Positions 31,030-63,573 of a stretch of DNA of 64,000 nt are shown here, one piece after another. The stretch's first letter is position 1. Each line of letters opens with the position of its first letter. Under the pieces are notes generated by a model, which was not told the origin of the DNA, searched no databases, and saw only the letters and a list, made by a program, of their open reading frames with translations. The DNA comes from Levilactobacillus wangkuiensis. GTDB taxonomy: Bacteria > Bacillota > Bacilli > Lactobacillales > Lactobacillaceae. Both the position numbers and the translations under genes were made by a program. The stretch spans positions 62,001 to 126,000 of the forward strand of contig NZ_BOLM01000001.1 of the NCBI RefSeq assembly GCF_016861605.1, read 5' to 3'.

Positions 31030-31213
31030 GTTCCCGACGGCGGGGCCAAAACGCCCTGCTATGGGGCCGGTTCCAGCCTGGAAAGCGGGCTTCCGCCTCG
31101 ACTTTGTGCCTGAGAAGCGGTCACAAAGGTCGTCCCGTGGGCTAGGTCGCACAAAAACTCCGACCAAGACCACCGACACAGCTGGGCATTTTGCCCCGCC
31201 TCTGGTCACTCAG
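31030..31213 (-). repeat. Structured intergenic repeat, type I copy a
   Basis: Read on the minus strand it begins TGAGTGACCAGAGGCGGG, passes GTGTCG, GGACGACC, a CTTTG hairpin and a CCGGxxCC hairpin, and ends CGTCGGGAACG. The end segments (CAAAACGCCC with GGGCATTTTG) pair to close the element. It lies between cutC and the AI-2E permease gene. Confidence 0.8.
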
Positions 31214-31410
31214 ACTGGCCACTCATTTTTCTGTCCTTGGAGCTGTTTAACAGCTGTCTGGGAACGGTCAGTAACCTGAAAACGTTAGCCAGCTGACTAG
31301 TGGTGACCCTTAATGGGTTTAACCAACAGGGGCTGACCTAATCATCACAGCTAACCAATGAATTACAGCTTAATCTCAAAGCTCATTTAATCATTCAAGG
31401 AGTGACGCAT
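31214..31410. other. Spacer before the AI-2E permease gene
   Basis: About 200 bases with several short direct and inverted repeats (for example GAGCTGTTTAACAGCTG) but no open reading frame or clear promoter. The ribosome binding site AAGGAG is at 31397-31402. Confidence 0.4.
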
Positions 31411-32595
31411 TTGAAATCGGAATCCAAACAACACCGGTCGTGGTTTTGGAGCTGGGTCGTAAACAATCGGCTGGTTTCCATTCTAACAATCACGCTCCTT
31501 ATTTTACTCATTTTATTGGTCCTAAGTAAAGTCCCATGGCTCGCGACGCCGTTTATTTTAGTGGGGCAGATTCTGGGACTGCCCATCATCCTGGCCGGCA
31601 TCGGGTATTATCTGATGAATCCGGTGGTGGATCGGCTGGAAAAGCGGGGGGTTCACCGAAGCTGGTCGATCATTGGCCTCTTCATTATCGTAGAGCTTCT
31701 GCTGGCGTGGGGCGTCGTTAGTCTGATTCCCATGGTCCAACGGCAGACCACGACGCTGATCACCGAGTGGCCACATTACTGGAATCAGCTCACGCGGACT
31801 AGTATGCAGTGGCTCCAGGATGACCGGCTCGACGGGGTACGCAAGCAGTTGGATCAGTTTAACCAACAACTGTCGGACAGTTCGTCGTCCGCCTTGTCCA
31901 GTCTGGCCAAAAATACGGTCAGTTCGGTCGGCGGTATCGTTAGCCGCGTGGTATCGATTGTGGTCGCCATCGTGACGGCGCCGTTCATTTTATTTTATCT
32001 CTTGCGCGACGGGCACCAGTTGCCCGACTATTTAGCCCGCCTGTTACCGGTGAGCCGGCGCAAGTCCGTGGTCACGTTACTGCGGGAAATGAACCGCCAA
32101 GTTAGTAATTACGTGCGGGGCCAGCTGGTCGTGGCATTCATCGTGGCCGTGCTGTTCTACATTGGTTTCCTGATCGTGGGGCTAAAATTTGCGCTACTAT
32201 TGGGCATCGTCGCTGGGGTGCTGAACCTGATTCCTTACCTGGGGTCGTTTCTCGCCATGATTCCAGCGGTGGTGGTCGCGGCGTTTGTGTCCCCATGGAT
32301 GTTGGTGAAGGTCCTGATTGTCTTTATCATTGAGCAAACGTTGGAAGGCCGAATCATTTCGCCACTAGTCCTTGGCAGCTCGCTGAAAATTCATCCGTTA
32401 ACGATTATTTTTATCTTATTGATTGCCGGTAAGGCCTTTGGCGTGGTCGGTGTGGTCCTGGGAATTCCGGGGTACGCCGTCATCCGGGTCGTGGCAACCG
32501 AATTTTTCCATTGGTACCAGACATTTGTCGGCGGCTACGAGGAACCGCAGCCCGTCGTGACAGAAACAGGAGAGAAGCCACATGAAGAAGATTGA
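31411..32595 (+). CDS. AI-2E family permease (TqsA/YdiK-like)
   Basis: 394 residues from TTG 31411, preferred over GTG 31402 because the latter overlaps the AAGGAG site. The protein has hydrophobic spans at about residues 22-42, 45-65 and 80-100, an extracytoplasmic helical segment, and a further cluster of spans from about 190 to 370, including GIVAGVLNLIPYLGSFLAMIP and the FIIEQTLEGRIISP motif typical of the AI-2E/UPF0118 transporter family. Members export autoinducer-2 or act as Na+/H+ antiporters, so the substrate is uncertain. The 3' end overlaps rlmA by 14 bases, indicating translational coupling. Confidence 0.85.
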   Translation: MKSESKQHRSWFWSWVVNNRLVSILTITLLILLILLVLSKVPWLATPFILVGQILGLPIILAGIGYYLMNPVVDRLEKRGVHRSWSIIGLFIIVELLLAWGVVSLIPMVQRQTTTLITEWPHYWNQLTRTSMQWLQDDRLDGVRKQLDQFNQQLSDSSSSALSSLAKNTVSSVGGIVSRVVSIVVAIVTAPFILFYLLRDGHQLPDYLARLLPVSRRKSVVTLLREMNRQVSNYVRGQLVVAFIVAVLFYIGFLIVGLKFALLLGIVAGVLNLIPYLGSFLAMIPAVVVAAFVSPWMLVKVLIVFIIEQTLEGRIISPLVLGSSLKIHPLTIIFILLIAGKAFGVVGVVLGIPGYAVIRVVATEFFHWYQTFVGGYEEPQPVVTETGEKPHEED

Positions 32596-33436
32596 TCAAG
32601 CGGCGACATTTTTAGCCGCGCACACCCAGCTCTTTCGCTGTCCAGTGTGTTTAGCACCCTACGCGACCGTTGAAGGCCACAGTTTAATTTGCCCAAACGG
32701 CCACAACGTTGACCTGTCCAAGAAGGGGACGCTGTACTTTATGCAGCGCGCCGTGGCCAGCGAATATGACAATGACATGTTAGCAGCTCGCCGTCGCATG
32801 CTCCAGGCCGGCCTCTTTGCGGGCATCACGGACGCCTTCGCGGCCAAATTACCCGCCGGTCCCCAGACGATTCTGGATGTCGGCTGTGGTGAGGGAACGC
32901 CGCTCGATGACGTGTTGAAACACCGGAACGGCCAGGATGCCGCGGTCGGCTTTGATTTATCCAAGCCCGGTATCAACCTTGCCACCCAACTGGACAACGA
33001 CGCGTTCTTCTGTGTGGCCGACCTGGCCCAGATGCCATTCGCAGATCACCAGTTTACGGCGATCTTGGACCTGTTTTCGCCATCGGCTTACAACGAGTTC
33101 AACCGGGTACTAGCGCCTGGTGGCAAATTGCTGAAGGTCATTCCTAATCCGGATTACCTGATTGAACTGCGTCAGGCCATCTTCCCGGCCGGCAGTGCGC
33201 ACGCCAGCTATGACAACAGCAACGTGCTGGACCTGTTCCAGAAGCATTATCCTAATGCCACCGTGGAACGGATTCGGTACCAGGTCCCCGTTCCCGCCGA
33301 ACTCTTTGCGGATTTGATGCTGATGACGCCGATGCACTGGGGTGCCGATGAGGCTCGCTTGGCTGAGGTCAAGGCCAATCCGTTCCCAGCTATCACGGTT
33401 GACGTGACCCTGTTAACCGCTGAGGGCGTGAAGTAA
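32582..33436 (+). CDS. rlmA: 23S rRNA (guanine-N1)-methyltransferase RlmA
   Basis: 284 residues. The N-terminal zinc finger FRCPVC...LICPNGHNVD binds rRNA, followed by KKGTLYFM and a Rossmann methyltransferase domain with the SAM motif ILDVGCGEGTPL. The enzyme methylates N1 of a guanine in 23S rRNA helix 35 (G745 or G748 by E. coli numbering). I cannot decide between RlmA-I and the TlrB-like RlmA-II from sequence alone, and Gram-positive members are often the latter. ATG 32582 lies inside the 3' end of the permease gene with GGAGAG just upstream. A probable small RNA gene follows. Confidence 0.9.
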   Translation: MKKIDQAATFLAAHTQLFRCPVCLAPYATVEGHSLICPNGHNVDLSKKGTLYFMQRAVASEYDNDMLAARRRMLQAGLFAGITDAFAAKLPAGPQTILDVGCGEGTPLDDVLKHRNGQDAAVGFDLSKPGINLATQLDNDAFFCVADLAQMPFADHQFTAILDLFSPSAYNEFNRVLAPGGKLLKVIPNPDYLIELRQAIFPAGSAHASYDNSNVLDLFQKHYPNATVERIRYQVPVPAELFADLMLMTPMHWGADEARLAEVKANPFPAITVDVTLLTAEGVK

Positions 33437-33463
33437 AACGTTTAAAAAACCGATAAAAAATGC

Positions 33464-33492
33464 TTGTGAACCTGACAGGACAGTGTTATATT
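33464..33492 (+). promoter_or_regulatory. Promoter of a probable small RNA
   Basis: TTGTGA (33464-33469), 17-base spacer, TATATT (33487-33492). No coding sequence follows on this strand before a terminator. Confidence 0.7.
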
Positions 33493-33498
33493 TATCGA

Positions 33499-33607
33499 TG
33501 AGAAATCGTTTGGCAGTTAACATCAGTGAAAGCTGTTGGTGGCTGACAAGTAGCACTTCACTAAAGTAGTCCCTCGCCGTGCCCACACCGAGGAGCTGCT
33601 TTTTTTC
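33499..33607 (+). ncRNA. Probable small RNA of about 108 nt, family not recognised
   Basis: Lies between a good promoter and an intrinsic terminator, in the gap after rlmA and before a minus-strand gene, so it is not a leader. Inner pairing is possible between AGTGAA and TTCACT (33526-33565 region). The 3' end is a 12-pair hairpin, AGTAGTCCCTCG with CGAGGAGCTGCT, followed by seven T. No start codon with a ribosome binding site is seen. It does not show the SRP, tmRNA, 6S or RNase P hallmarks that I could check by eye. Confidence 0.6.
33565..33607 (+). terminator. Intrinsic terminator of the probable small RNA
   Basis: 33565-33576 pairs with 33589-33600 with one mismatch, then TTTTTT. Confidence 0.8.
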
Positions 33608-33626
33608 TTGCCCTAAAATAACTAGC

Positions 33627-33660
33627 AAATACCCCGAAGATAGTTGCCTTCGGGGTATTT
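33627..33660 (-). terminator. Terminator of LPxTG protein A
   Basis: AAATACCCCGAAG (33627-33639) pairs with CTTCGGGGTATTT (33648-33660). A near-identical hairpin follows the paralogous gene at 35288-35321. Confidence 0.8.
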
Positions 33661-33755
33661 GTGTCGTGACATGGGTTTGGTAAGGGTAAGGCTAGTCGGC
33701 AGGGCGCGCTAATGGTCGACTGACTAGCCTTGAGGTTAGGGGGGAGCGGGGGTCA

Positions 33756-34949
33756 CTAGTGCTTACAATCTCGTAAGCTGAGGAAACTACCGGTCAAGCT
33801 AGCTAACAAGAGGGCGAGTCCGGCGACGAGGATGCCAGCGGATTGGCGATCACCCGTTTGTGGTAAGGTCGTGGACGGATAGGTCGCTGGGGCGTGACCG
33901 GCAGCGGGGGAAGTGGTTGGCGATTGGCCCGTCGCGTGTTGGTTGATGGCTGCGCTGGTTACGGGAGGGTTAGCGTTGCTACTGCCATCGCCAGGAGTGA
34001 TGGTTGCGGTTTGACCACCGGTTTGCGTTCCACCGGTTGGTTTGAGAATTGGCTTCCCAGGCTTGTTGAACGTTGGCTTCGTCGGCTTGCCGGGGACAGT
34101 CACACCAGGGTAGCCGGGATCATCAGGCGTAACGGCTGGACTTTCGGGTTCTGGCACGATTGGCTCAGGCTTAACGGGTGGGTAGGTGACGCCAGGCGTG
34201 GAAGTCCCGGGGATTTCGCCAGCCGGGTTTTCGCCGCCAGGCTTTTCAGTCCCCGGTTCTTCAACGCCGGGTGCTTCAGGCCCACCAGGTTCTTCGGGTC
34301 CAGGCTTTTCGCTGCCAGGTTCTTCAGTCCCAGGTTTTTCGCCACCAGGTTCTTCGGTCCCAGGTTCCTCAACACCAGGTGCTTCAGGTCCACCGGGTTC
34401 TTCAATGCCAGGCACTTCGGGGCCGGGTTCCTCAGGGCCTGGTTCACCGGTTCCGGGTTCTTCGGGGGTGGTCGGTGGGACAACTTCTTCGGGCTGGCCA
34501 GCACCATAGACTTCAACGGAAATGTACCCACTCTTCAGGTAATCGTGCGTCGCAAAGAAATTGGTGAAGGTACAGACGCCGACGTGACTGCCAATGGTAA
34601 CGTCCCATTTGCCAATGATGGCCTTGCCGTCGTAACTGCTCATGTCAAAGGAGCGGGTCCGAGTAATGTTGACGTTCTTAGGAATATAGAAATCCATGGT
34701 GTCACCGGCATTGACCTTTTCGGCTTGGCTGATGGACCAACTGTACTTAACGTTGTAAACCTTGTCTGCGGGTAAGATCGCGGTGTGTGACATGACTTTC
34801 CCACCGGGGACGCTGACAATTTTAGCGTCAGGCTCGCTGGTTCCCTTAGCTGGAATGACCCGCGCATAGGCTTGGGTAGGTGATCCAAATAAAAAGATGA
34901 GTGCTAGGCTGGAGGTAACCAGTAGCGCAAATTTTGTTCTTCGTCGCAT
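33756..34949 (-). CDS. LPxTG-anchored surface protein A with Pro-Gly-Glu stalk
   Basis: 397 residues from ATG at 34949, preceded by AGGAGGAG; longer in-frame starts lack a site. A signal peptide (MRRRTKFALLVTSSLALIFL, cleavage near AYA) is followed by a beta-rich domain of about 110 residues (VNAGDTMDFYIPKNVNITRTRSF...) resembling Ig-like adhesin N-domains. Next come imperfect PGTEEPG/PGxEKPG repeats forming an extended stalk, a Pro/Lys linker, and the sorting signal LPQTGD with hydrophobic tail and a short charged end. Sortase should link it to peptidoglycan. It is one of two tandem paralogues that share upstream and terminator sequences. The ligand is unknown; adhesion is inferred. Confidence 0.85.
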   Translation of the reverse strand: MRRRTKFALLVTSSLALIFLFGSPTQAYARVIPAKGTSEPDAKIVSVPGGKVMSHTAILPADKVYNVKYSWSISQAEKVNAGDTMDFYIPKNVNITRTRSFDMSSYDGKAIIGKWDVTIGSHVGVCTFTNFFATHDYLKSGYISVEVYGAGQPEEVVPPTTPEEPGTGEPGPEEPGPEVPGIEEPGGPEAPGVEEPGTEEPGGEKPGTEEPGSEKPGPEEPGGPEAPGVEEPGTEKPGGENPAGEIPGTSTPGVTYPPVKPEPIVPEPESPAVTPDDPGYPGVTVPGKPTKPTFNKPGKPILKPTGGTQTGGQTATITPGDGSSNANPPVTSAAINQHATGQSPTTSPAAGHAPATYPSTTLPQTGDRQSAGILVAGLALLLASLTGSFLSLRDCKH

Positions 34950-35287
34950 GTTTTCTCCTCCTATCAGACTGAAATATTGCTCCTCTCCGATACCCATAAG
35001 TTAACACGTTTATACGCTGAACATTAGTATCTTGATTGGTTCGTTAAGTGACTCTTAGTTGTCAAATTGTTGATTTAACGGGGATTATGTAGAACAATGG
35101 AGAAGCGTCAGTATGTTTTGGTTGACAAATATGTTTCTGCAATAAAACGATTAGGCATCTGGTGAAAGGGGTGTAAGTGGCCTGTTTCTAGACGCCAACG
35201 ACGTACAAAACAGGTGAAACAGTTTGGCCGATAATATATTGGCCGAGTTAGTCGGCTGAGACTGTCGAAATGGTGAATAAGTCTGAC
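34950..35287 (-). promoter_or_regulatory. Conserved upstream region of LPxTG protein A
   Basis: About 300 non-coding bases matching 36656-36965 upstream of the paralogue. The conservation implies a shared promoter or operator. A TATAAA lies in CGTATAAACGTG on the minus strand (near 35010), without a clear -35. TTGACA occurs near 35065 in this copy but is not kept in the other, so it is unlikely to be essential. Confidence 0.5.
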
Positions 35288-35321
35288 AAAAGCCCCGAAG
35301 ACGGATGCCTTCGGGGCTTTT
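35288..35321 (-). terminator. Terminator of LPxTG protein B
   Basis: AAAAGCCCCGAAG (35288-35300) pairs with CTTCGGGGCTTTT (35309-35321). It may act in both directions. Confidence 0.8.
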
Positions 35322-35416
35322 GTGTGGTGACATGGGTTTGGTAAGATCCAGGCCGATCAGCGGAGCGAGCTAATGGTCGGCGGATTGGCCTGAATCTTAG
35401 GGGGGAGTGGGGGTCA

Positions 35417-36655
35417 TTAATGCTTACGATCCCGTAAGCTGAGGAAACCACCGGTCAGGCTAGCTAACAGGAGGGCGAGTCCGGCAACGATGATGCCAGT
35501 GGATTGGTGATCACCAGTCTGTGGTAGGGTCGAAGATGGATAGGTCGCTGTGGCGTGACCAGTAGCGGGAGTCGTGGTTGGCGATTGTCCCGTTGCGTGG
35601 TTGTTGATGGCCGCGCTGGTTGCGGGCTGACTAGCGGTGCCGCTGCCTTGGCCGCTAGGGGTGATGGCAGCGGTTTGACCACCGGTTTGGGTCGACCCAG
35701 TGGGTTTAGACCCGGTTGGTTTGTGAACCGGCTTGCCGGGTTTGTTGAGCGTCGGCTTGGTTGGTTTGCCGGGAACGGTCACGCTAGGATAGCCGGGATC
35801 TTCAGGCGTAATGACGGGCGTTTCGGGTTCTGGAACGACTGGTCCAGGCTTAACGGGTGGGTAGGTGACGCCAGGTGTGGAAGGCCCGGGCTTTTCGCCG
35901 GCAGGTTCCTCTGGAGCTGGGTCTTCTGGGTTAGGTTCCTCAACCCCAGGTTCTTCGACCCCAGGTGCTTCTGGTTCGCCGGGCTCTTCAGTCCCAGGTT
36001 CTTCAACGCCAGGTTCCTCGACCCCGGGTTCTTCAACCCCAGGTTCCTCAGTTCCAGGTTCTTCGGTTCCAGGCTCTTCAGGGTAAGGTTCTTCGCCAGG
36101 CTCCTCAACCCCGGGCTCCTCAACCCCAGGAACTTCTGGTTCAGGTTCTTCGGTCCCAGGCTCTTCTGGGGTGGTCACTGGTGGTGTCACTTCTTCGGGC
36201 TCACCGGCACCACGGACTTCAAAGGAAATGTAACCTTCCTTAAGGTACTTGTGCGTCGCAAAGAAATTGTTGAAGGTGCAGACGCCGACGTGACTACCGA
36301 TAGTGACGGTTGTTTTACCAACGCTGGCCCTGCCGTCGTAACTGGCCATGTTAAAGGAACGGGTTCGGGTAACGTTGACGTTCTTAGGAATGTAGAAATT
36401 CATGGTGTCGCCAGCGTTGACCTTGACGTTGTCCGCGATAGACCAAAAATATTTAACGTCATAGACGCCGTCCTCAGGTAAGACCGCGGTATGCGACATC
36501 TCTTCTTGACCAGGGTCGGTGAGGATAGTAGCCTCAGGTTCACTGGTTCCCTTAGACGGAACAACACGAGCATAGGCTTTGGTAGGTGATTCAAATAGAA
36601 AGATGAGTGCCAGGCTGGAGGTAACCAGTAGCGCAAATTTTGTTATTCTTCGCAT
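35417..36655 (-). CDS. LPxTG-anchored surface protein B, tandem paralogue of A
   Basis: 412 residues from ATG at 36655 with AGGAGG upstream. Architecture equals protein A: signal peptide ending near AYA, a beta-rich N-domain (VNAGDTMNFYIPKNVNVTRTRSF, SHVGVCTFNNFFATHKYLKEGYIS), a longer stalk rich in PGVEEPG and PGTEEPG, and the sorting signal LPQTGD. The N-domain and C-terminus are close to A, while stalk length differs, as expected from slippage of the 12-21 base units. It is an expected sortase A substrate exposed on the wall. The ligand is unknown. Expression is probably co-regulated with A through the shared upstream block. Confidence 0.85.
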   Translation of the reverse strand: MRRITKFALLVTSSLALIFLFESPTKAYARVVPSKGTSEPEATILTDPGQEEMSHTAVLPEDGVYDVKYFWSIADNVKVNAGDTMNFYIPKNVNVTRTRSFNMASYDGRASVGKTTVTIGSHVGVCTFNNFFATHKYLKEGYISFEVRGAGEPEEVTPPVTTPEEPGTEEPEPEVPGVEEPGVEEPGEEPYPEEPGTEEPGTEEPGVEEPGVEEPGVEEPGTEEPGEPEAPGVEEPGVEEPNPEDPAPEEPAGEKPGPSTPGVTYPPVKPGPVVPEPETPVITPEDPGYPSVTVPGKPTKPTLNKPGKPVHKPTGSKPTGSTQTGGQTAAITPSGQGSGTASQPATSAAINNHATGQSPTTTPATGHATATYPSSTLPQTGDHQSTGIIVAGLALLLASLTGGFLSLRDRKH

Positions 36656-37104
36656 GTTTTTTCCTCCTAACAGGCTGAAATATTGCCCCCTCCGACACCC
36701 ATAAGTTAACACGTTTATACGCTAAACATTAGTATTTTGGTTTGTTCGTTAAGTGACCCTCGGTTGTGTAATTGTTGATTTGATAGGGATTGCGTAGAAT
36801 GATGGAGAAGGGCCGTTATGTTTTGGTTGACAAATATGTTTCTGGGAGAAAATTATTATGTGTATGCTTGAACAGCTGCGAGCGGCTTGATTTAAACGCT
36901 AAACGACATGTAAGACAGGCGAAGTAGTTTAGCCGATAATATACTGAATTTAGACGGCGAATTTTATAATCAAGTTAGCCACTTGAAATTTGCGTACTGA
37001 ATTTAGACAATACCTGGGTAATATTAATTTGTTCATTTGGCGGTGAGGTAGAGAATAAGTCTGACAAGGAATGAATCTGGTAACCGTAAAATTCAAGATC
37101 AATG
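36656..37104 (-). promoter_or_regulatory. Conserved upstream region of LPxTG protein B and unassigned spacer
   Basis: 36656-36965 matches the region upstream of paralogue A. 36966-37104 is spacer without a gene; it contains two copies of ACTGAATTTAGAC (near 36944 and 36996). Confidence 0.5.
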
Positions 37105-37289
37105 TGAGTGACCAGAGGCGGATCAAGGTGACCAGCTGTGTCGATGGTCTTAGCTGAGTGATTTTCTCAGGTTAGACCATGGGACAACCTTTGAGACCGC
37201 TCTTTGGCTCAAAGTTGAGCTGGAAGACCGCCCCTCAGGCTGGAAGCGTTCCCCACAGCAGGGCACCTTGAATCCGCCGCCGGGAACGG
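37105..37289 (+). repeat. Structured intergenic repeat, type I copy b
   Basis: Begins GAGTGACCAGAGGCGGAT and ends ATCCGCCGCCGGGAACG, which pair. Inside are the conserved box CTGTGTCGATGG, a Ser-loop hairpin (GCTGAG/CTCAG), CCATGGGACAACC, hairpin CTTTGAGACCG...GGCTCAAAG, hairpin CTGGAAGACCG...CAGGCTGG, and CCCCACAGCAGGG. This copy gives the clearest sense-orientation view. Confidence 0.85.
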
Positions 37290-40285: not shown

Positions 40286-40301
40286 GTTTTCGCCTTTGGT
40301 T

Positions 40302-40418
40302 TCGCCTTGCCGGGCGGTCAAAAATAGACCGGAACGCGGTGGGCAGGACCGGCCAGGGCCTAAATCCCACGGCTGAGCCTATTTTTGACCGTCCTATCGG
40401 CTGACGCTGGTTTAACCC
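40302..40418 (-). repeat. Structured intergenic repeat, type II copy a (mini form)
   Basis: On the minus strand it begins GGGTTAAACCAGCGTCAGCC, then GGTCAAAAATAGGCTCAGCCGTGGGA, and closes with CCCACCGCGTTCCGGTCTA and TTTTTGACC. Unlike other type II copies only one short inner hairpin (about 20 nt) remains in place of three. It begins 17 bases after the ftsK stop. Confidence 0.75.
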
Positions 40419-41238: not shown

Positions 41239-41323
41239 TAAACGGAAGTATTCAAGCACGACACGACCGGTTTCGTGTTGGGACGTTTCCGTTATGGTGA
41301 AATGAAACCGGCGAGTGATTGCC

Positions 41324-41371
41324 GTTCCCGGCGGCAGATTCAAGACGCCGCTGGCCGCTCAGACTTGCGAA
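41324..41371 (-). repeat. Type I repeat remnant: terminal arms only
   Basis: GTTCCCGGCGGCAGATTCAAGA is followed directly by CGCCGCTGGCCGCTCAG, which match the two ends of type I copies (compare 58331-58357 and 58500-58519) with the interior missing. Confidence 0.55.
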
Positions 41372-41511: not shown

Positions 41512-41715
41512 GGGTTAAACACGTGTCAGCCGGAAGGTCGGTGAAAATAGGCTTAGCCGTGGGAATTTTAGCAGCAGGGTCACTGCTGCTAAAATTAGGT
41601 GACTTTAAGACGCGACCTTTGCGGCTTAAAGCAAGGTGGGAGACCGCCCTTTGGCTCCCACCGTCCGCCCACAGCGTTCCGGCCTATTTTCACCGTCCTG
41701 GAGGCGCGGGCTAAG
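41512..41715 (+). repeat. Structured intergenic repeat, type II copy b
   Basis: GGGTTAAAC start, closing stem GGTGAAAATAGGC with GCCTATTTTCACC, GCCGTGGG with CCCACAGC, and three inner hairpins (a TTTTAGCAGC pair, a CTTTAAG/CTTAAAG pair, and GGGAGACCG...GGCTCCC). It ends about 25 bases before the ribosome binding site of the DUF3397 gene. Confidence 0.85.
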
Positions 41716-41755
41716 ACAAGTTAAAACAAGTAAACCAAAAAAAGGGGGAAGTCGC

Positions 41756-46312: not shown

Positions 46313-46337
46313 AAGAGAATGAGGATTGAGTCGAACA

Positions 46338-47309
46338 ATGATGAATGTGATTTTACCCCTGTTGGGTGGATTTGTAATAACGGCGGCGTTTATGCCGTCA
46401 TTGATCCGGTACTTCCGGGCGCGGCATGAAGGCCAAATGATTCGTGAAGAAGGGCCCACGTGGCACGAAAAGAAATCAGGGACCCCAACCATGGGTGGCC
46501 TGTTATTCATTGTTGCGATTGCAGTGATGACGCTCGCGACGAGCTGGATTGTTGGCCCACACCATGTGCTGTCGACCACGTGGATCTTACTGTTCATCCT
46601 GGTCTTATATGGCGCCTTAGGGGCGTGGGATGACAGCATCAAGCTGTTCCACCGGCAAAATGAAGGCTTAAAGGCCTGGCAAAAACTGCTGGGACAAATC
46701 GTTGGGGCGTTGATCTTATTCTGGGTCTACACCCGCGAACAACTCCCAATGGCCCTGCACGTTCCGGGGATGGGTAACTGGCACATGAGTGGCTGGTACG
46801 CCGTCTTCGTGATTATTTGGTTAGTTGGCTTCAGTAATGCGGTGAACCTGTCAGATGGCCTCGATGGCCTGGTGAGTGGGTTGGCCAGCATTGCCTTTGC
46901 GGCTTACGGAATCGTTGCCTGGAACCAGCACCAACTCAACATCGCTATTTTCTGTTTTGCCGTAGTCGGCAGTCTCCTCGGTTTTCTCATCTTTAATCAC
47001 AAGCCAGCCAAAATCTTCATGGGTGACACCGGGTCATTGGCCTTAGGTGGTGCCTTAGCGGCCGTGTCAATTCTGTTGCATCATGAATTGTCCCTGCTGT
47101 GGATTGGCCTGATCTTTGTGATTGAGACGGCGAGTGTTATTTTGCAAGTTGCCTCATTTAAGCTAACGGGTAAGCGAATTTTCCTGATGAGTCCGATTCA
47201 CCATCACTTCGAAATGAAGGGGTGGAGTGAATGGAAGATTGATTTGACTTTCTGGGGAATTGGGTTGATTACCGCGGTTACTGGCTTGTGGGTCATCTTA
47301 CCAAAGTAG
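46338..47309 (+). CDS. mraY: Phospho-N-acetylmuramoyl-pentapeptide transferase
   Basis: 323 residues from ATG 46338; TTG 46326 is in frame but is adjacent to the GAGGA site and adds sequence not normal for MraY. About ten hydrophobic spans. Family motifs are [25 protein letters not shown] (catalytic Asp cluster), [12 protein letters not shown] and [13 protein letters not shown]. It makes lipid I from UDP-MurNAc-pentapeptide and undecaprenyl phosphate. It is followed by an intrinsic terminator and a repeat array, so it does not run into murD as in most relatives. Confidence 0.95.
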
Positions 47310-47325
47310 AGCTGCGACTGTGGTG

Positions 47326-47361
47326 GGGGCTAACCCGCACGCCGCAGGTTAGCCCCTTTTT
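47326..47361 (+). terminator. Intrinsic terminator after mraY
   Basis: GGGGCTAACC (47326-47335) pairs with GGTTAGCCCC (47347-47356), then five T. It splits the division cluster between mraY and murD. Confidence 0.9.
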
Positions 47362-47400
47362 AGGTCCTCTGGCTGAGGTGTAGTGTTAGGTTACCGCTGC

Positions 47401-47567
47401 GCTGGACAGGTGCTCTCACCCTATGGGGACCGGGCCAAGCCGAAGGGCGGTCTTGGCCCTCGCTTTGAGTCATTGAAAACCACAATGTCTCAAAGTCGTC
47501 CCAGTCTGTAAGGCCGGCAGAAAACGCCGACCAACAGCCTCGACACAGGGTTTCGCACCTGTCCAGC
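47401..47567 (-). repeat. Structured intergenic repeat, type I copy c
   Basis: Perfect 12-base closing arms GCTGGACAGGTG (47401-47412) and CACCTGTCCAGC (47556-47567). On the minus strand it has the GTGTCGAGG box, GGTCGGC/GCCGGCC hairpin, CTGGGACGAC, the CTTTGAGAC hairpin and the GGCCAAGACCG hairpin. Confidence 0.85.
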
Positions 47568-47671
47568 TCCGCTGAAATAGCGGTGCCAGAGAATCTAAAA
47601 ATGGACTACCTGCTTGTTTGGTGTGGTGGGTGTTGGTTAGATTGGCTTAGGGCTGGGATTAAGTTGACTGC

Positions 47672-47838
47672 GCTGGACAGGTGCTCTCACCGTATGGGGA
47701 CCGGGCCAAGCCGAAGGGCGGTCTTGGCCCTCGCTTTGAGCCATTGAAAACCACAATGTTTCAAAGTCGTCCCAGTCTGTAAGGCCGGCAGAAATCGCCG
47801 ACCAACAGCCTCGACACAGGGTTTCGCACCTGTCCAGC
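47672..47838 (-). repeat. Structured intergenic repeat, type I copy d
   Basis: Same 167-base length and closing arms as copy c, with a few substitutions. Second unit of the array. Confidence 0.85.
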
Positions 47839-47944
47839 TCCGCTGAAATGGCGACGGCCAGAGAAACTAAAAACTGGGCTGGCTGCTTGTTTGGTGCGGT
47901 GGGTGTTGGTTAGATTGGCTTAACCCTGAGATTAGGTTGACCGC

Positions 47945-48111
47945 GCTGGACAGGTGCTCTCACCCTGTGGGGACCGGGCCAAGCCGAAAGGCGGTCTTGG
48001 CCCTCGCTTTGAGCCATTGAAAATCACAATGTCTCAAAGTCGTCCCAGTCTGTAAGGCCGGCGGAAAACGCCGACCAACAGCCTCGACACAGGGTTTCGC
48101 ACCTGTCCAGC
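47945..48111 (-). repeat. Structured intergenic repeat, type I copy e
   Basis: Same 167-base length and closing arms as copy c. Third unit of the array. Confidence 0.85.
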
Positions 48112-48358
48112 TCCGCTGAGATAGTGGCGGCCGGAGAATCTAAAAATGGTCTGTCTGCTTGTTTGGTGTGGTGGGTGTTGGTTAGATTGGCTTAGCCCAT
48201 AGAACCTAGACCGGATGGTTTTGCCATCAGGATTGGTTCGGTGCGCCGTATCATTTGCTGGTTAATCCATTTATAGCGGGTAACCAGTCTGCTGCACAGA
48301 AGAGAATTGCTGGCATTGATTGGGCTGAACGACTAGTTTGGTCAACGCACAATCAAGA

Positions 48359-48540
48359 GCCGGAGGCGGACAGGACGGAGACGGCTGTGTCGAGGGTGTT
48401 AGCCGGCGCTTCTTGCCGGCTTACAGCCTGGGACAACCTTTGAGACGTGGTAGTTTCACGGCTCAAAGTTGAGGTGGGAGCCCGCTTCTCAGGCGGGAAC
48501 TGGCCCCACAGCAGGCGTAGTCCTGGCAGCCGCAGGCGGC
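48359..48540 (+). repeat. Structured intergenic repeat, type I copy f
   Basis: Starts GCCGGAGGCGGACAGGAC, carries CTGTGTCGAGG, GCCGGC hairpin, CCTGGGACAACC, the CTTTGAGAC...CTCAAAG hairpin and the GGGAGCCCG hairpin, then CCCCACAGCAGG and GTCCTGGCAGCCGCAGGCGGC. It has the opposite orientation to the array just before it. Confidence 0.85.
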
Positions 48541-48551
48541 AAATTCACCGC

Positions 48552-48599
48552 AATCCGGCCCGAAACAAATCCGGCCCGAAACAAATCCGGTCCGAAACA
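48552..48599. repeat. Three tandem 16-bp units upstream of murD
   Basis: AATCCGGCCCGAAACA occurs twice exactly and once with a C-to-T change, followed by a partial fourth unit (AATCTGG). Confidence 0.9.
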
Positions 48600-48666
48600 A
48601 ATCTGGTTTAACACAATTAAACAAAATTAAAAACATAAGCATAAGAATGGAGAGCGAACGGTTATT

Positions 48667-50046
48667 ATGAAACAAATCACGACGTATCAAAATAAAAAAG
48701 TGTTGGTCCTGGGACTAGCCAAGAGTGGGGTCAATGCAGCGCACCTATTGAAGCGGCTGGGTGCACAGGTCACCGTCAGTGATGTCAAACCGTTGGCTGA
48801 GAATCAGGATGCGCAGGATCTCCAAGCGGCTGGGTTTACCGTAATTACGGGTGAACAGACCGCTGACCTGTTAGATCCGGGTTACGATTACATTGTCAAG
48901 AATCCCGGAATCTTCTACGACGTTCCCGTTGTGCAACGGGCATTGGCAGAAAAAATTCCCGTGATTGGGGAAATGGAATTGGTTGGCGAGGTTGCCGACG
49001 CTGAGTTGGTGGCCGTGACCGGGAGTAACGGGAAGACCACGACGACCACGATGATCCAAAAGATGTTGGACCGCGACCGGAAGACGGGCAAGGCCGTTTA
49101 TGCCGGGAACATTGGCATTCCTGCCAGCAAGGTCGTTCAAGAAGTTACGCCGGACGATACGTTGGTGCTGGAAGTTTCCAGTTTCATGTTAGCCGAAACG
49201 ACTGAATTTCATCCCCACATCGCCGTGCTGACCAATATCTTCTCCAACCATTTGGACTATCACAAGACGCGAGCCAACTATGTAGCTGCCAAGATGAAGA
49301 TCACCGCGAACCAAACGGACAAGGATTACTTCGTCGTAAACTTTGACAACGCAGAGTGGCGTGACCTGAGCCGCAACACGAAGGCGCAAGTCGTCCCATT
49401 CTCCCGAACTGATCAGTCCGAGGATGGCGCTTACGAAAAGGATGGCGTGCTGTACTTTAAGGAAGAAGCCATCATGCCTGCCAGCGAAATCAAGGTTCCT
49501 GGCGACCACAACGTAGAAAACGCGCTGGCGGCCATTGCCGTGGCCAAAATCAAGGGCGTCAGCACCAGTGCCATCGTGGCCGTACTGCGGACCTTTGGTG
49601 GCGTGCGTCACCGGACCCAATACGTGTTAGAGGCCGAGGGTCGTCAATACTACAACGATTCCAAGGCAACCGACATGGAAGCCACTGAGATGGCCTTAAA
49701 GGGCTTCACCGCCCCCGTTGTCTTACTGGCAGGGGGCTTGGACCGCGGTTACACCTTTGAAAAGATGCTGCCAGCCTTCAAGGCCCACGTCAAGGCAATC
49801 GTCTTGTTTGGCCAGACGGCTAATTTGTTAGCTGAAACGGCTAAGCAAGCGGGAATTCCCACCATTAAAATGACCGAAAACGTTGAAACCGCGGTTCCCG
49901 TGGCGTACGATTTAAGTGAACCCGGCGACATCATCCTCTTGTCGCCCGCCAATGCCAGTTGGGATCAATACCCGAACTTTGAGGTCAGAGGTGACCGGTT
50001 TATCAAGGCCGTTGAGCAGTTAACTGGCAAACAGGAGGAAAAATAA
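48667..50046 (+). CDS. murD: UDP-N-acetylmuramoylalanine--D-glutamate ligase
   Basis: 459 residues. N-terminal UDP-binding domain ([17 protein letters not shown]), central ATPase domain with P-loop [10 protein letters not shown], then VLEVSSFML and NHLDYH, and a C-terminal ligase domain with YNDSKATDM. It adds D-Glu to UDP-MurNAc-L-Ala in the cytoplasm. ATG 48667 follows GGAGAGCG. murD is separated from mraY by about 1.36 kb of repeats, so it must have its own promoter, perhaps in the AT-rich stretch 48600-48650; none is clear. It overlaps murG by a single base. Confidence 0.95.
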
Positions 50047-57102: not shown

Positions 57103-57810
57103 ATGGTATTAAGTCCATTAGATATTCACAATAAAGAGTTTGGCACAAAGATGCGCGGTTACAACGTTGATGAGGTCAATGATTTCTTGGATCAAGTCAT
57201 CAAGGATTACCAAATCACGTTGAACCACAACAAAGAATTAGAGGAACAACTGGATGCGGCGAACGAGAAACTCAAGTACTTTAACGACTTGAAGGATTCC
57301 CTGAACCAATCCATCTTGGTTGCGCAAGAGGCCGCCGATAAGGTCAAGGCCAACTCCCAAAAGGAATCTGAGATTATCATTCGCGAAGCCCAGAAGCAAA
57401 GCTCCGACATCGTTTCTGAAGCCACGAACAAGGGTAACCAGATCATGAATGAAGCTTCCAAGCGCGCCAAGAAGCTGGCCGTCGAAACCGACGACTTGAA
57501 GAAGAGCACGCGGGTCTTCCGGCAACGGCTACAAGTCATGCTGGAAAGCCAGTTGGAAGTGGTCAAGTCTAACGACTGGGACAGCCTGTTAAAGGAAGGG
57601 TCCATGTCCAGCTACGAAGAAATCAAGAAGGTCGTTGGTGACCGGCTTGACAACGAAGGGCCTCAGGGCGTACACTCAGAAGCATCCCAACCGGTTGAAG
57701 AGACGCCGGTAACGGAAGCCCCTGTGACCGATAGTGGGGACGACAATGGCGAAACCGTTGTGATTTTCCCAGACAACGACCAACCACAGTTTGACAAAGA
57801 TAATAATTAA
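57103..57810 (+). CDS. divIVA: Division-site/polarity protein DivIVA
   Basis: 235 residues. The N-terminal membrane-curvature domain is LSPLDIHNKEFGTKMRGYNVDEVNDFLDQVIKDY, followed by long coiled coil (about 35-165) and an acidic, Thr/Pro-rich tail. DivIVA gathers at negatively curved membranes such as the septum and recruits division and wall proteins. GGAGGG precedes ATG 57103. It ends the division gene run; the isoleucine T-box begins directly after. Confidence 0.95.
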   Translation: MVLSPLDIHNKEFGTKMRGYNVDEVNDFLDQVIKDYQITLNHNKELEEQLDAANEKLKYFNDLKDSLNQSILVAQEAADKVKANSQKESEIIIREAQKQSSDIVSEATNKGNQIMNEASKRAKKLAVETDDLKKSTRVFRQRLQVMLESQLEVVKSNDWDSLLKEGSMSSYEEIKKVVGDRLDNEGPQGVHSEASQPVEETPVTEAPVTDSGDDNGETVVIFPDNDQPQFDKDNN

Positions 57811-57814
57811 GCAC

Positions 57815-58055
57815 TGAGAAAAGAACTGTTCAAAAAGAAGGTACTAGCGAGTTAGCGATGGTGGAAGGCTAACGCCCGCTCTTTTTGTCCGGTATCATTC
57901 CCAAAGCTCCACGGCTGAACTTTTAGTAAGCGGTGGCGTGTACGACACGTTACGTCGTTTGAGGGTGGGTTGCGTTTGCCGTTTTGGCTGCGCGGCTTGC
58001 TAAATTTGGGTGGTACCACGAAAACGACTTCGTCCCTAGCGGCAAGTCGTTTTTT
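57815..58055 (+). promoter_or_regulatory. T-box leader, isoleucine-type, with terminator
   Basis: The T-box sequence GGGTGGTACCACG is at 58008-58020. The Stem I distal part GCGATGGTGGAAGGC is at about 57861, and GGTATCATTCCC near 57890 gives specifier ATC (Ile). The terminator AAAACGACTT / AAGTCGTTTT lies at 58021-58052 and is mutually exclusive with the antiterminator. It senses uncharged tRNA-Ile and should control ileS, but the ileS start is about 885 bases downstream. Confidence 0.85.
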
Positions 58056-58084
58056 GTTTGCTCTTTTCGGTTGGTCGTTGGGGT

Positions 58085-58279
58085 CCGCTCCCGGCGGTGG
58101 TCCTTTGCTCCCCACGCTGTGGGGCCCGCTTCCAGCCTGAGAAGCGGTCTTCCAGCTCGCCTGGAAACCTCGCAAAATACGCGAGTTTCCCAGGTCGTCC
58201 CATGGTCTAACTCGGGTGAGAGACCCCGAGTAAGACCATCGACACAGCGTGGTCCGCAAAACCACCTCTGGTCGCTCAC
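58085..58279 (-). repeat. Structured intergenic repeat, type I copy i
   Basis: Ends CGCTCCCGGCGGTGGT and ACCACCTCTGGTCGCTCA, which partly pair. The minus strand has the GTGTCGATGG box, GGTCTTACTCGGGGTC hairpin, CCATGGGACGACC, and two further hairpins. It begins 30 bases after the T-box terminator. Confidence 0.85.
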
Positions 58280-58330
58280 AACGGCCACCGAAAGGCAAAC
58301 AAACACTTGCTTTTGTACGGGTTTGACTGT

Positions 58331-58519
58331 CGCTCCCGGCGGTGACTTCAAGATACCCTGCTATGGGGACCGCCTGCAGCCAAAGGGCGGGCTTCCGGCT
58401 CGCTTTGAAGCCACGAAAAGCACGTGTCTCCAAAGTCGTCCCATGCTGTAAACGACTAAAGAACAGTCGTTAACACCATCGACACAGCTGGGCATCTTGA
58501 GTCACCTCTGGTCGCTTAG
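58331..58519 (-). repeat. Structured intergenic repeat, type I copy j
   Basis: Ends CGCTCCCGGCGGTGACTTC and GAGTCACCTCTGGTCGCT. Interior has AAGATACCCTGCTATGGGG, hairpins and the box CATCGACACAGCTGGG. Same orientation as copy i. Confidence 0.85.
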
Positions 58520-58609
58520 GTTGGTGTGCCAGTGTTAATTTGTTTTAGTGGCCATCTCACTATTGCCTGTAGTGAGGTCAGTCTCACTGGTCAATTTGAC
58601 CGGTAATTC

Positions 58610-58810
58610 TGGGTTTACAGTCACAACTCGTCTTAGCCGAGAGGGGTGTGAAAATGGACTCAGCCGGTGGATTTCCTGAGGAAACCTCAGGAAATGGCGA
58701 CTTTGAAACTCGGTTCTTAGAGGTTCAAAGCGAGCTTGAAGACCGCACTTTGGCTTCAAGTGTCCTACCACCAGCGTTCCGGTCCATTTTCACGCCCCGG
58801 CAGGCGGAAG
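58610..58810 (+). repeat. Structured intergenic repeat, type II copy d
   Basis: Closing stem GGGTGTGAAAATGGACTC with GGTCCATTTTCACGCCCC, GCCGGTGG with CCACCAGCG, and hairpins TTTCCTGAGG/CCTCAGGAAA, CTTTGAAACTC...GTTCAAAG and CTTGAAGACCG...GGCTTCAAG. The terminal GGGTTTAC is less exact than in other copies. It lies about 115 bases before the ileS ribosome binding site. Confidence 0.85.
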
Positions 58811-58940
58811 GCAAAGACCAGTCGAAGGTTTTAATGCAAAGAGAATTAACGGTCGGGTTGACCGGTGAGCTGAGGTCGGGAAATGACTTGAGCTCACCGG
58901 TTCACCAACCGAGGAACAAATTTTAAGGAGGAAATACGGT

Positions 58941-61754
58941 ATGCGAGTGAAAGACACGCTGAACTTGGGTAAGACCAAGTTTAAGATGCGCGGTAATTTA
59001 CCAGTCAAAGAAGTTGACCGGCAAAAAGCCTGGGCAGACAACAAGATTTACGAAGCCCGTCAAAAGTTAAACGAAGGGAAGCCATCATTTATTTTACATG
59101 ATGGGCCCCCATACGCGAACGGCCCGATTCACATGGGTCATGCGATGAACAAGATTTCTAAGGATATCATGGTGCGTTACAAGTCCATGAATGGGTTCCG
59201 TGCCCCTTACGTTCCCGGCTGGGATACGCATGGTCTGCCAATCGAACAACAATTGACGAAGGCTGGTTACGATCGCAAGAAGATGTCGACCGCTGAGTTC
59301 CGTGACCTCTGTCGCGACTACGCGTTGAAGCAAGTTGACTTACAACGCGATGGGTTCAAACGGCTGGGTGTTTCTGCCGAATGGGACAATCCTTACCTGA
59401 CCTTGAAGCCAGAATTCGAGGCCGCTGAAGTCCGCGTCTTTGGTGAATTTGCCAAGCGTGGGTTGATCTACAAGGGTAAGAAGCCCGTTTACTGGTCATG
59501 GTCATCCGAATCTGCTATGGCTGAAGCCGAAGTGGAATACCACGATGTAACCTCACCATCCGCTTTTTACGACGAAAAGGTCGTTGACGGCAAGGGTGTC
59601 TTGGACGATGACACTTACCTGGTCGTCTGGACCACGACGCCTTGGACGATTCCTGGTTCTGAAGGGATCACCATCGATGCCGGTATCGAATACGCCGTTG
59701 TCCAACCCGCTGGGGAAGACCGGAAATTCGTTTTGGCTAGCGACTTGGTAGCTGAAAATGCCGAACGTTTCGGTTGGGAAGACGTCAAAGTCTTGAAGAC
59801 CGTCATGGGACAAGACATGGACAACATTATTGCCCAACACCCATTCATCGCTGACCGCAAGCTGGTCGTGATGTTAGGCGACTTCGTGACGACTGACTCC
59901 GGGACTGGTCTGGTTCATACCGCGCCAGGTTTAGGGGAAGACGACTTTAACGTTGGTAAGCTCTACAACCTGCCCGTGTTAGTTCCCGTTAACGACCAAG
60001 GGTACATGACCGCCGAAGCCGGCGAAGATTTTGATGGCGTGTTCTACGAAGATGCCAACAAGATTGCCTTGGATAAGTTGAAGGCCAACAACGCCTTACT
60101 GAAGTACATGCCATACGAACACAGTTACCCATTTGATTGGCGGACCAAGAAGCCCGTTATCTTCCGGGCAACGCCACAATGGTTCGCGTCCGTCGATAAG
60201 ATCCGTGACGAGATCTTGGCTTCCTTGCAAGACGTTAAGTTCCAACCAGATTGGGGCAAGCGTCGTTTGGAAAACATGATCAAGGACCGTGGCGACTGGG
60301 TTATCTCCCGTCAACGGGTCTGGGGTGTGCCACTGCCAATCTTCTACGGTGAAGACGGCGAAGCTATCATCACGCCAGAAACGGTCGACCACGTGGCTGA
60401 CTTATTTGGCAAGTATGGGTCCAACATCTGGTTCAAGCGTGAAGCCAAGGATCTCTTGCCTGAAGGCTTTACCAGCGAACACTCACCAAATGGCGAATTC
60501 ACGAAGGAAACCGACATCATGGATGTTTGGTTTGACTCCGGTTCGTCTCACCAGGGTGTGCTGGCCGAACGCGACTACCTGGACTTCCCAGCTGACCTTT
60601 ACCTGGAAGGTTCCGACCAATACCGTGGCTGGTTCAACTCTAGTTTGATCACCAGTGTTGCCGCTACCGGCAAGGCCCCTTACAAGCAGGTCGTTTCGCA
60701 AGGGTTCACGTTGGACAAGGACGGACACAAGATGTCTAAGTCCATCGGGAACACGATTGCACCTAGTGAAATCATCCAGAAGATGGGTGCTGACATCGTG
60801 CGTCTCTGGGTAACCTCCGTGGATACCTCAGCCGACGTGCGGGTCTCAACGGAATCCTTCGTGAAGATTTCCGACAGTTACAAGAAGTTGCGGAACACGA
60901 TGCGTTACCTGTTGGCCAACACCAGCGACTTTGATCCCGAAAAGGATGCGGTCGCCTTTGATCAGCTGACTGCCGTTGACCGGCACATGCTGTATCAACT
61001 GAATGAATTCACCAAGAGCGTCAAGGCCCACTACGACAACTTTGACTTCCTGAACATCTACAAGGAACTCATCAACTTTGTTGTCAGCGACCTGTCTGCG
61101 TTCTACCTCGACTTTGCCAAGGATGTCCTGTACATCGAGGCCGAAGACAGTGCTGCGCGTCGTTCGATGCAGACCGTCTTCTACCAAATTGCCGTGACCT
61201 TGACCAAGTTAATCACGCCAATCCTGCCACACACGGCCGAAGAAATCTGGGGCTTCCTGAAAGAACCAGAAGACTTCGTGCAATTGGCTGAAATGCCCGC
61301 TGTGATGGACATGGATGACGCCGTGGAAGTCGAAGACGACGAACACAAATCCGCTTGGGACCACTTCATGGACCTGCGGAGTCACGTTCTGAAGGCTTTG
61401 GAAGAAGCGCGTGACGCCAAGCTAATTGGGAAGGCCGCTGAAGCCCACCTGGACTTGTACGTGGATGACGCGACCCAGGCCCTCTTGGACAAGCTGAACG
61501 TGAACGTCCAACAAATCCTCTTGGTTTCCGGTTTAGACGTTGCGAAGTTGGATCAAGCCCCAGCTGACGCCTTGAGTTTTGGCAACATGGCCGTTAAGGT
61601 TTCCGCCGCTGCCGGTGAGGTCTGTGACCGTTGTCGGTTGACCAAGGAAGACGTTGGTAGCGATACTGACTATCCACACTTCTGTGCCCGTTGTGCCGCT
61701 ATCGTTCGGGCCAACTACCCTGAAACGGCAACTGAAGGTTTTGAAGAAAAATAA
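58941..61754 (+). CDS. ileS: Isoleucyl-tRNA synthetase
   Basis: 937 residues, class I synthetase charging tRNA-Ile. The HIGH-type motif is [17 protein letters not shown], the editing (CP1) domain includes [14 protein letters not shown], and the KMSKS loop is [10 protein letters not shown]. The C-terminal zinc site is formed by CDRCRL and [13 protein letters not shown] lies just ahead of ATG 58941. It is a bacterial-type (mupirocin-sensitive-like) enzyme by length and zinc tail. Control is expected through the upstream T-box, although three repeats intervene. A strong terminator follows. Confidence 0.97.
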
Positions 61755-61896: not shown

Positions 61897-61922
61897 TTGC
61901 ACTATGTATGGGAGGGAACACG

Positions 61923-62147: not shown

Positions 62148-62149
62148 GC

Positions 62150-62692: not shown

Positions 62693-62701
62693 GTGACAGC
62701 A

Positions 62702-62992
62702 ATGCGTTCAGACGATGAACAAGATAGTCCCAAGACCCGCGCCGATTACCGACGGGAGCAGGAGCGTGCCGAGCAGGAATTTCAGGAACGCGACCGCAAA
62801 CGGGTACAGGTCGAAAAGGAATACGCGCGCACACACGGTGGCGAAACGCCCAGTGACGACGCGCCTACTGAACAGCGGGTCAATCCCGTGGACAGCAAAC
62901 AGCAACGGCTAGGACGACGGCTCAATTGGGCGATCTTCTGGCTGGTGCTTTTGATTATTGCGGTTTACCTCATCCTCTTCTTCCTCGACTAA
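62702..62992 (+). CDS. Small C-terminally anchored membrane protein
   Basis: 96 residues from ATG 62702, with AGGTGA five bases upstream; GTG 62693 would overlap that site. Residues 1-about 70 are highly charged, helix-prone and rich in Arg/Glu (RADYRREQERAEQEF), and the C-terminus is a single hydrophobic span (WAIFWLVLLIIAVYLILFFLD). It would sit with the charged domain in the cytoplasm. Such a gene is commonly found between the Nudix gene and mtnN in lactobacilli; no function is known to me. It is 9 bases from the Nudix stop. Confidence 0.75.
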   Translation: MRSDDEQDSPKTRADYRREQERAEQEFQERDRKRVQVEKEYARTHGGETPSDDAPTEQRVNPVDSKQQRLGRRLNWAIFWLVLLIIAVYLILFFLD

Positions 62993-63002
62993 GCTTTATC
63001 CT

Positions 63003-63197
63003 GGCGGTAGCCGCCGACGTCAGCTAGGTACTCCGCCTGTGGGGACCGCCGGCAGCCTGAAAAGCGGTCTGCCGGCTTGACTTTGAACCTCACAAAAGAC
63101 GTGAGTTTCAAAGCTCATCCCGTGGTGTAGGCCGGGAAAGAACCCCGGCCAACGCCACCGACACAGGTCTGCGTACCTAGCTGCCTTACGGCTACGG
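63003..63197 (-). repeat. Structured intergenic repeat, type I copy k
   Basis: Outer arms GGCGGTAGCCG with CGGCTACG and CAGCTAGGTAC with GTACCTAGCTG close the element. Interior has CTGTGGGGACCG, hairpin GCCGGCAG...CTGCCGGC, hairpin CTTTGAAC...TTTCAAAG, CATCCCGTGG and the box ACCGACACAG. Confidence 0.85.
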
Positions 63198-63360
63198 TCA
63201 AGGCTAAAGCCACCGGACTTTGGTGGTTGTTTGATTTGGTTGTGTGAGATAAAGTGTGATCGAAGTTAGGTTAACTTGAATGAGGTTGTGTATTTATATG
63301 GAATATACCATCTCACCTTTTAAAAGTTAATGAATAGCAGTGACTCGCAATCACTGATGT
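63198..63360. other. Spacer between two structured repeats
   Basis: About 160 AT-rich bases with no gene or clear promoter. Confidence 0.4.
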
Positions 63361-63573
63361 CGGGTTAAACCGGTGTGAGCCGTGAGGGCAGTGAAAATGG
63401 GCTCAGCCGGGGGATTTTCCAAGGGTTTTACTTGGAAAATGGCGACTTTGAAACACGTTTTTTGTGGTTCAAAGCGAGTCCAGAGACCGCTTTTTGGCTC
63501 TGGACGTCCTGCCCCCAGCGTTCCGGCCCATTTTCACTGCCCGGTAAGGCGCCAGCTACCGCAGCTTAACCCG
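63361..63573 (+). repeat. Structured intergenic repeat, type II copy e
   Basis: Terminal inverted repeat CGGGTTAA (63361-63368) with TTAACCCG (ending 63573). Closing stem GGGCAGTGAAAATGGGC with GCCCATTTTCACTGCCC; hairpins TTTTCCAAG/CTTGGAAAA, CTTTGAAACAC...GTTCAAAG and CCAGAGACCG...GGCTCTGG. This is the most intact type II copy. It ends about 27 bases before the mtnN ribosome binding site. Confidence 0.9.

Follow-up and report, generated by a model that had tools for sequence, protein, structure and literature searches.

BOX elements of Streptococcus pneumoniae, a Gram-positive bacterium, are intergenic repeats of high copy number with a modular, structured build. Miniature inverted-repeat transposable elements (MITEs) of prokaryotes have been reviewed (PMC10969869), and the sections of that review consulted here also name BOX elements. 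Repetitive extragenic palindromic sequences (REPs), which are tied to Y1-type REP-associated tyrosine transposases (RAYTs), are short palindromes, of 20-40 bp according to the abstract of PMC3733652, and a repeat survey included Lactobacillus johnsonii, with 3 clusters according to the excerpt used (PMC2267715). In the open literature, the top-ranked titles and abstract openings did not name such repeats in lactobacilli. Here we analyzed a family of intergenic repeats with a three-hairpin core in a 64,000-nt stretch of Levilactobacillus wangkuiensis (contig NZ_BOLM01000001.1, positions 62,001 to 126,000, forward strand; hereafter the window). We interpret the family, with a probability of roughly 0.6, as a MITE-like non-autonomous mobile element, shaped like the REP doublets forming hairpins (REPINs), with an ancient structured core that folds as one strand.

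Self-comparison and profile searches gave 17 element matches at 31029-63570, partial ones counted and two being halves of one element, and a covariance model of the core (143 model positions, 43 pairs) gave 14 window matches at E ≤ 0.05, in line with the roughly 17 copies counted in a preliminary description made from the letters alone. The features are given below with their profile or model evidence; G337 denotes a near relative of the host (isoleucyl-tRNA synthetase, IleRS, 99% identical; aligned blocks 85-96% identical and mostly >90%, repeat-gene blocks aside).

31029..31210, minus strand: type I, full; profile; model 116.8 bits at 31052-31189
37107..37288, plus strand: type I, full, its outer stem (GGTAACCGTAAAATT / AATTTTTACGGTTACC) longer and unique; profile; model 134.6 bits
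40290..40417, minus strand: outer stem of type II, all three hairpins missing; two half-matches (profile)
41319..41344, minus strand: fragment, type I 3' end; self-comparison
41513..41727, plus strand: type II, full; profile; model 58.4 bits
47414..47557, minus strand: type III, tandem unit 1; profile; model 108.1 bits
47686..47828, minus strand: type III, tandem unit 2; profile; model 93.7 bits
47958..48101, minus strand: type III, tandem unit 3; profile; model 108.1 bits
48377..48519, plus strand: type III, upstream of a murD-like gene; profile; model 141.2 bits
51169..51300, minus strand: type I with an internal deletion, complete here in G337; profile 27.3 bits
51450..51561, plus strand: type I, profile match without the 3' part; profile; model 50.1 bits
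51638..51852, plus strand: type II, full, upstream of an ftsQ/divIB-like gene; profile; model 62.0 bits
58086..58276, minus strand: type I; profile; model 138.7 bits
58331..58516, minus strand: type I, full; profile; model 140.3 bits
58625..58823, plus strand: type II, upstream of ileS; profile; model 47.9 bits
63029..63173, minus strand: type III; profile; model 124.9 bits
63363..63570, plus strand: type II, full; profile; model 49.7 bits

The element folds into a closing stem and three hairpins, A, B and C, and the boxes, hairpin order and two kinds of ends were as previously described: type I ends are AGTGACCAGAGG...CCGGGAACG, and type II ends are GGGTTAA...TTAACCC, together with a GTGAAAATGG stem. 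A third group (type III, at 47414, 47686, 47958, 48377 and 63029) joins the type I core to different arms. We read the type I closing stem as interrupted by hairpin A (GCTGTG-A-GGG...CCC-CACAGC), and the four C of CCCCACAGC would be explained by the GCTGTG/CACAGC closing stem running on as GGG/CCC past that hairpin; in type II, hairpin A is read as lying inside an unbroken GCCGTGGG/CCCACAGC stem. A search for the literal pattern CTTTGA-N4-TCAAAG, two mismatches allowed, stayed at chance level in the window (6 found vs 3.5 expected, with 14 of 100 shuffles reaching 6), since neither the sequence nor the loop length of hairpin B is constant. A general repeat search of the whole window was dominated by an 18-base repeat gene, with no elements among its 20 families listed, and mechanically called open reading frames (ORFs) overlapped some of the window copies. 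The site at 40290-40417 has a near-complete match at the same place in G337, and window 47386-48198 comprises three tandem units of ~272 nt, each with a type III element, where G337 has one such copy.

Covariation in the core was significant by the measures used (RNAalifold pairs and shuffles), bearing out the earlier observation that the arms vary in sequence yet keep pairing. For 56 core sequences from the host and related genomes, RNAalifold predicted 35 pairs, 30 of them changed on both sides; with the closing stem included (43 pairs, 56 sequences), 95.9% of pair cells could pair and 33 of the 43 pairs were doubly changed, as against 20.1 in shuffles, and none of 500 shuffles reached the observed value in any of five measures. 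Pairing dropped from 95.9% to 30.5-48.6% when the structure was slid. Sequences from two other genera (24, found with the model and aligned without it) folded de novo into the same architecture, with 33 of 48 pairs doubly changed, and the unpaired positions and loops of the core were conserved across genera. In our interpretation, it is the folding of one particular strand that keeps the core conserved; the fold itself is established by covariation. That evolution has kept this fold suggests that the folded strand does some job.

The choice of the folded strand is moderately supported. G-U pairs outnumbered A-C mismatches by 87:32 in the Levilactobacillus alignment and by 35:13 in that of the two other genera, and among 91 near-full copies of the 112 found in the host sample described below, the sense strand gave the more stable fold in 35 of 47 copies of type I, 19 of 23 of type II and 18 of 21 of type III. 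Alignment folds of the 24-sequence set gave -40.5 vs -29.9 and -55.7 vs -51.7 kcal for the sense and the other strand. The data therefore favour one strand in single-stranded form but do not separate RNA from single-stranded DNA (ssDNA), and we consider it more likely that the core is selected as RNA.

The host genome (3.14 Mb in 56 contigs) belongs to Levilactobacillus, judging from its IleRS, which shares 94% identity over the best segment with the L. suantsaiihabitans and L. lindianensis enzymes. In a 464-kb sample, which served for copy counts and arrangement, 112 profile matches covered 18,369 of 464,000 bases (~4%), and the covariance model, a check that the preliminary description had proposed, gave 99 matches (14 at E ≤ 0.05 in the window and 85 at E ≤ 0.01 elsewhere); extrapolation would give roughly 670 copies genome-wide if these are evenly spread. 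DNA-similarity matches occurred in 13 of 17 same-genus relatives and in none of 12 genomes of other families. The model matched 106 of 397 Lactobacillaceae genomes, host included, in 11 of 40 genera, and the host alone among 398 genomes drawn from the class. More than 100 matches were present in 6 of 16 genomes examined closely (four genera), and at least 150 in three of these. IleRS identities of 89% to L. modestisalitolerans and 96% to L. zeae placed genome G321 with Lactiplantibacillus and genome G077 with Lacticaseibacillus, respectively. BLAST at E 1e-5 returned no match in PLSDB plasmids for a type I copy or a G321 unit, and none in INPHARED phages for a type II copy or a G321 unit. Within the genomes searched, the family is thus confined to Lactobacillaceae.

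Comparison with Rfam 15 at gathering score, also proposed earlier, gave one match in the window, outside the elements, and no family on the elements. A permissive scan reported PyrR206 at 58357-58413 (16.4 bits against a gathering score of 46, E 4.2), and the same kind of scan over 14 loci reported two tRNAs plus six hits that stayed under the gathering score, one of them a glutamine-riboswitch match at 1795-1860 of locus L233 (27.5 bits, gathering 33) that may lie on the pair partner. The sub-gathering matches were taken as chance.

The arrangement of copies was evaluated in the host sample and in samples of G321 (600 kb) and of another element-bearing genome, G344 (200 kb), using longest ORFs, unannotated, as gene calls throughout and removing element-overlapping ORFs <250 aa before gene-position counts; the orientation counts took in 96 of 101 G321 elements and 55 of 63 G344 elements, one of the 63 lying inside an ORF. 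None of the 112 host copies lay inside an ORF of at least 120 aa, and the 3' end faced the nearest ORF, at its start or stop, for 101 of 112 copies in the host, 81 of 96 in G321 and 47 of 55 in G344. Host intergenic regions with copies had a median length of 556 nt, compared with 69 nt for those without. Adjacent pairs were divergent in 44 of 44 cases in G321 (median spacer 85 nt) and 18 of 20 in G344 (237 nt), and no convergent pair was found in either sample or in any of the 27 multi-copy regions of the host. We take the ancestral unit to be two inverted copies with 3' ends outward and a spacer between. The doublet as unit was borne out in G321 and G344, whereas single-copy regions were commoner in the host (46 of 73); single copies would be relics or one-core variants. 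Related species again held elements, often of other types, in the intergenic regions that correspond to window 46326 to 48667 (the latter gene murD-like) and to the gene at 57103 up to ileS, and some species had only a short spacer there.

Element sets differed between near relatives: among 20 element-bearing regions compared between the host and G337, 9 carried the same set and 11 a different one through gain, loss, tandem number or type. One clean presence/absence difference of ~200 nt against G337 lay right of the window (67303-67516 of C1b, the window extended by the stretches that follow it), and its direction could be either, including loss in G337. At 58086, the G337 copy was 94% identical to the neighbouring host copy at 58331, as if one copy had overwritten the other. 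In two further genome comparisons (G001/G008 and G002/G016), the alignment broke at elements, mostly without clean empty sites. The inverted pairs of G321 sat in units with CTAAAGGTTGAAAG inverted ends, and target duplications of at least 6 bases (7-9 seen) flanked 14 of 24 end pairs (the 24 count some ends more than once, in alternative pairings), whereas 1000 re-pairings averaged 1.0 and never exceeded 5; the 14 duplication-bearing units measured 506-549 bp, and several G321 units stood behind T-runs resembling terminators. Two shorter units with the same inverted ends were seen in G321, one of 319 bp with one core (L272, 13117-13435) and one of 201 bp with no core by eye (L314, 6871-7071). 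In G344, 7 of 18 pairs passed a loose duplication test run without a control and left uncounted. It is very probable that the element is mobile. Two candidates of the preliminary description, a MITE-like element and a mobile structured RNA, were both largely supported by the turnover between near relatives, the Lactiplantibacillus inverted ends with target duplications and the strong covariation.

If a single-strand (HUH-type) transposase read the folded strand, as for REPINs and the ends of IS200/IS605, the fold could be kept for transposition only, and an ssDNA-based element of this kind would fit the inverted outward pairs, the host copies without target duplications and the strand-specific fold. 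A Y1 transposase was present in 7 of 12 other element-bearing genomes; against this, the host genome had 0 and 5 of the 12 had none, in a search whose controls were positive in 5 of 14 and in which other HUH families were not searched, and the G321 duplications point to double-strand, DDE-type chemistry. We regard an ssDNA-based element as unlikely, and membership in the RAYT/REPIN system was rejected on the same absence of Y1 transposase. Still far less probable is a guide-type RNA (omegaRNA-like) of the TnpB elements in the host, for which ten TnpB-domain matches over the cut-off, one of them partial, might speak: the eight TnpB loci examined share an insertion sequence (IS) of ~1.5 kb of which the core is not part, the core standing outside it in three and being absent in five, and the ends of this IS do not match the element, so that a TnpB guide-RNA origin was rejected. 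The TnpB genes at host loci L213-L220 lie in these ~1.5 kb elements although the host has no Y1 transposase match. Two reverse transcriptase genes were also found.

Two further explanations appear improbable to a similar degree, both less likely than the ssDNA element. Copies at 41513, 48377, 51638, 58625 and 63363 sit in sense shortly 5' of start codons, and single copies between tandem genes counted 20 sense leaders against 9 antisense copies facing the gene's 3' end, as expected of riboswitch-like or attenuator-like leaders controlling the downstream gene; but 11 of the 46 single-copy regions are flanked by convergent genes, the extrapolated copy number runs to hundreds, the element sets of near relatives are not alike, and the 3' end turns toward stops as well as starts, so that a family of regulatory leaders, also put forward earlier, is not supported as a general reading. 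Alternatively, palindromes could be kept solely by arm-to-arm correction in replication with no selection on the fold, which would suit arms that vary yet pair, copies that can overwrite each other as at 58086, and resident copies that overall evolve hardly more slowly than their flanks. Such correction does not explain why unpaired positions and loops are conserved across genera.

Several observations weigh against a mobile element with a selected, strand-folded core. No partner transposase was found, and target duplications in the host were at chance (4 of 112 singles and 1 of 72 clusters vs 2 of 112 random places), although the arms of its copies do pair. The G-U excess rests on few columns, 25 of the 87 coming from one pair and 14 from another; when each change between orthologues was scored as one event, it came to 20:11 (p = 0.15), and element-free intergenic DNA likewise favoured the sense strand, by 3.4 kcal. 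An alignable orthologue in G337 was available for 26 of 35 near-full copies on C1a and C1b in one comparison and for 27 in another, with 20 forming a low-divergence set. In this set 12 stem pairs were doubly changed vs 3.0 expected, 11 still pairing, which speaks for a fold kept at resident copies; single stem changes kept the pair in 30 cases and broke it in 21. Divergence over all 27 was 9.0% in elements vs 9.9% in aligned flanking intergenic DNA; it was 4.8% vs 6.9% when both were held under 12%, and 5.0% vs 8.9% in the 20 orthologues filtered on element divergence, a difference that nearly vanishes without the filter. Slower evolution of resident copies is thus weak. A consensus scan of 57780-58960 showed no promoter-like site.

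A parent of the elements was looked for as well. Among the 100 places listed, of 207 with the G321 ends, no inverted end pair 1-3 kb apart that would mark an autonomous IS was seen by eye, and end pairs at 3.1 and 3.7 kb each enclosed another end. In a search for a longer common element in the host, the strongest flank matches were one intergenic sequence seen twice, with 74 matches left after masking.

Taken as mobile DNA, the elements would be non-autonomous, with an inverted pair of three-hairpin cores, 3' ends outward and a spacer between, as the unit, and would spread through a transposase acting in trans, as suggested by one Lactiplantibacillus genome, where the units have inverted ends and target duplications of 7-9 bp. 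In our opinion it is as RNA that the strand folds. Upstream positions are taken by copies at ileS, the murD-like gene and the ftsQ/divIB-like gene, and three lie between ileS and its T-box leader (57805-58040, plus strand, 68 bits with gathering at 93, E 6.5e-15). Among 98 3' flanks, TTTTT occurred in 0 within 15 bases and in 5 within 40; the absence within 15 bases makes the elements unlike terminators, and a terminator role was rejected. Transcripts would therefore appear to read through them. Given the mirror symmetry of the pair, transcription reading through in either direction would reach a sense copy last, beside the following gene, and from this the most likely work of the fold would be to render insertions into untranslated regions harmless or even useful, perhaps by insulating, processing or stabilising the transcript; this is our best guess and a tentative one.

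To our knowledge, an ordinary MITE would not be expected to preserve in its interior a multi-hairpin fold that covaries between genera, which suggests that either the host or the mobility mechanism reads this one. Equally tentative is the broader proposal that an ancient RNA domain, the closing stem with its three-hairpin junction, has resided in mobile elements through much of Lactobacillaceae history as an orientation-proof RNA device shown to a conserved host factor, for which RNA polymerase, the ribosome or an RNase, met just before the next gene, would be candidates. The mirror-image pair would ensure that transcripts entering from either side present the folded sense RNA. If true, such a device would let hundreds of copies settle beside genes such as ileS, murD and ftsQ. 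Genera carrying the elements include food and probiotic species. The family reaches at least eleven bacterial genera and makes up ~4% of the DNA sampled from a single species without an Rfam family at gathering score, and its copies by essential-looking genes offer natural insertions with which to test structured RNA in untranslated regions.

Other features were seen in the window. An ORF of 3818 aa at 1199-12655 (plus strand), with hundreds of 18-base repeats from ~5830 on, looks like a putative repeat-rich surface protein. The Rfam 23S-methyl RNA motif (RF01065) matched 33507-33607 (plus strand) with 64.4 bits. A direct duplication of 1.6 kb (33626-35241 and 35287-36946, 77% identical) holds long minus-strand ORFs in both halves, and the ORF at 33756-34997 within it has a Big_8 domain.

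Compared with known systems, the elements resemble BOX elements in their modular, structured, high-copy intergenic nature and are set apart from them by description and Rfam only. Like MITEs as treated in the consulted sections of PMC10969869, they are short and intergenic with stable stem-loops, and the Lactiplantibacillus members have inverted ends and direct repeats; they differ in the three-hairpin core that covaries across genera, often as two cores in an inverted pair, in window-genome copies without target duplications and in that no parent IS was seen among the G321 places listed. These two marks of MITEs, inverted ends and target duplications, are thus found in the Lactiplantibacillus members, and the window copies, which lack them, are classed only as working like one. 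With REPINs, as far as the consulted part of PMC3116915 describes them, they share the inverted doublet as replicating unit, the extragenic position and the occurrence of clusters and singlets, whereas from REPs they differ in a half-unit core of ~143 positions with a multi-hairpin junction and in element-bearing genomes without Y1 transposase. The bcr1-bcr3 repeats of Bacillus cereus, in the portion of PMC3446304 used, are likewise MITE-like intergenic repeats, often in untranslated or intra-operon intergenic regions, but belong to another host group and are separated here by description and Rfam only. What is known, then, is the class of small mobile structured repeats; what is new, with the L. 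johnsonii clusters of PMC2267715 uncompared, is that a core of several hairpins is conserved, built into pairs and spread through the family.

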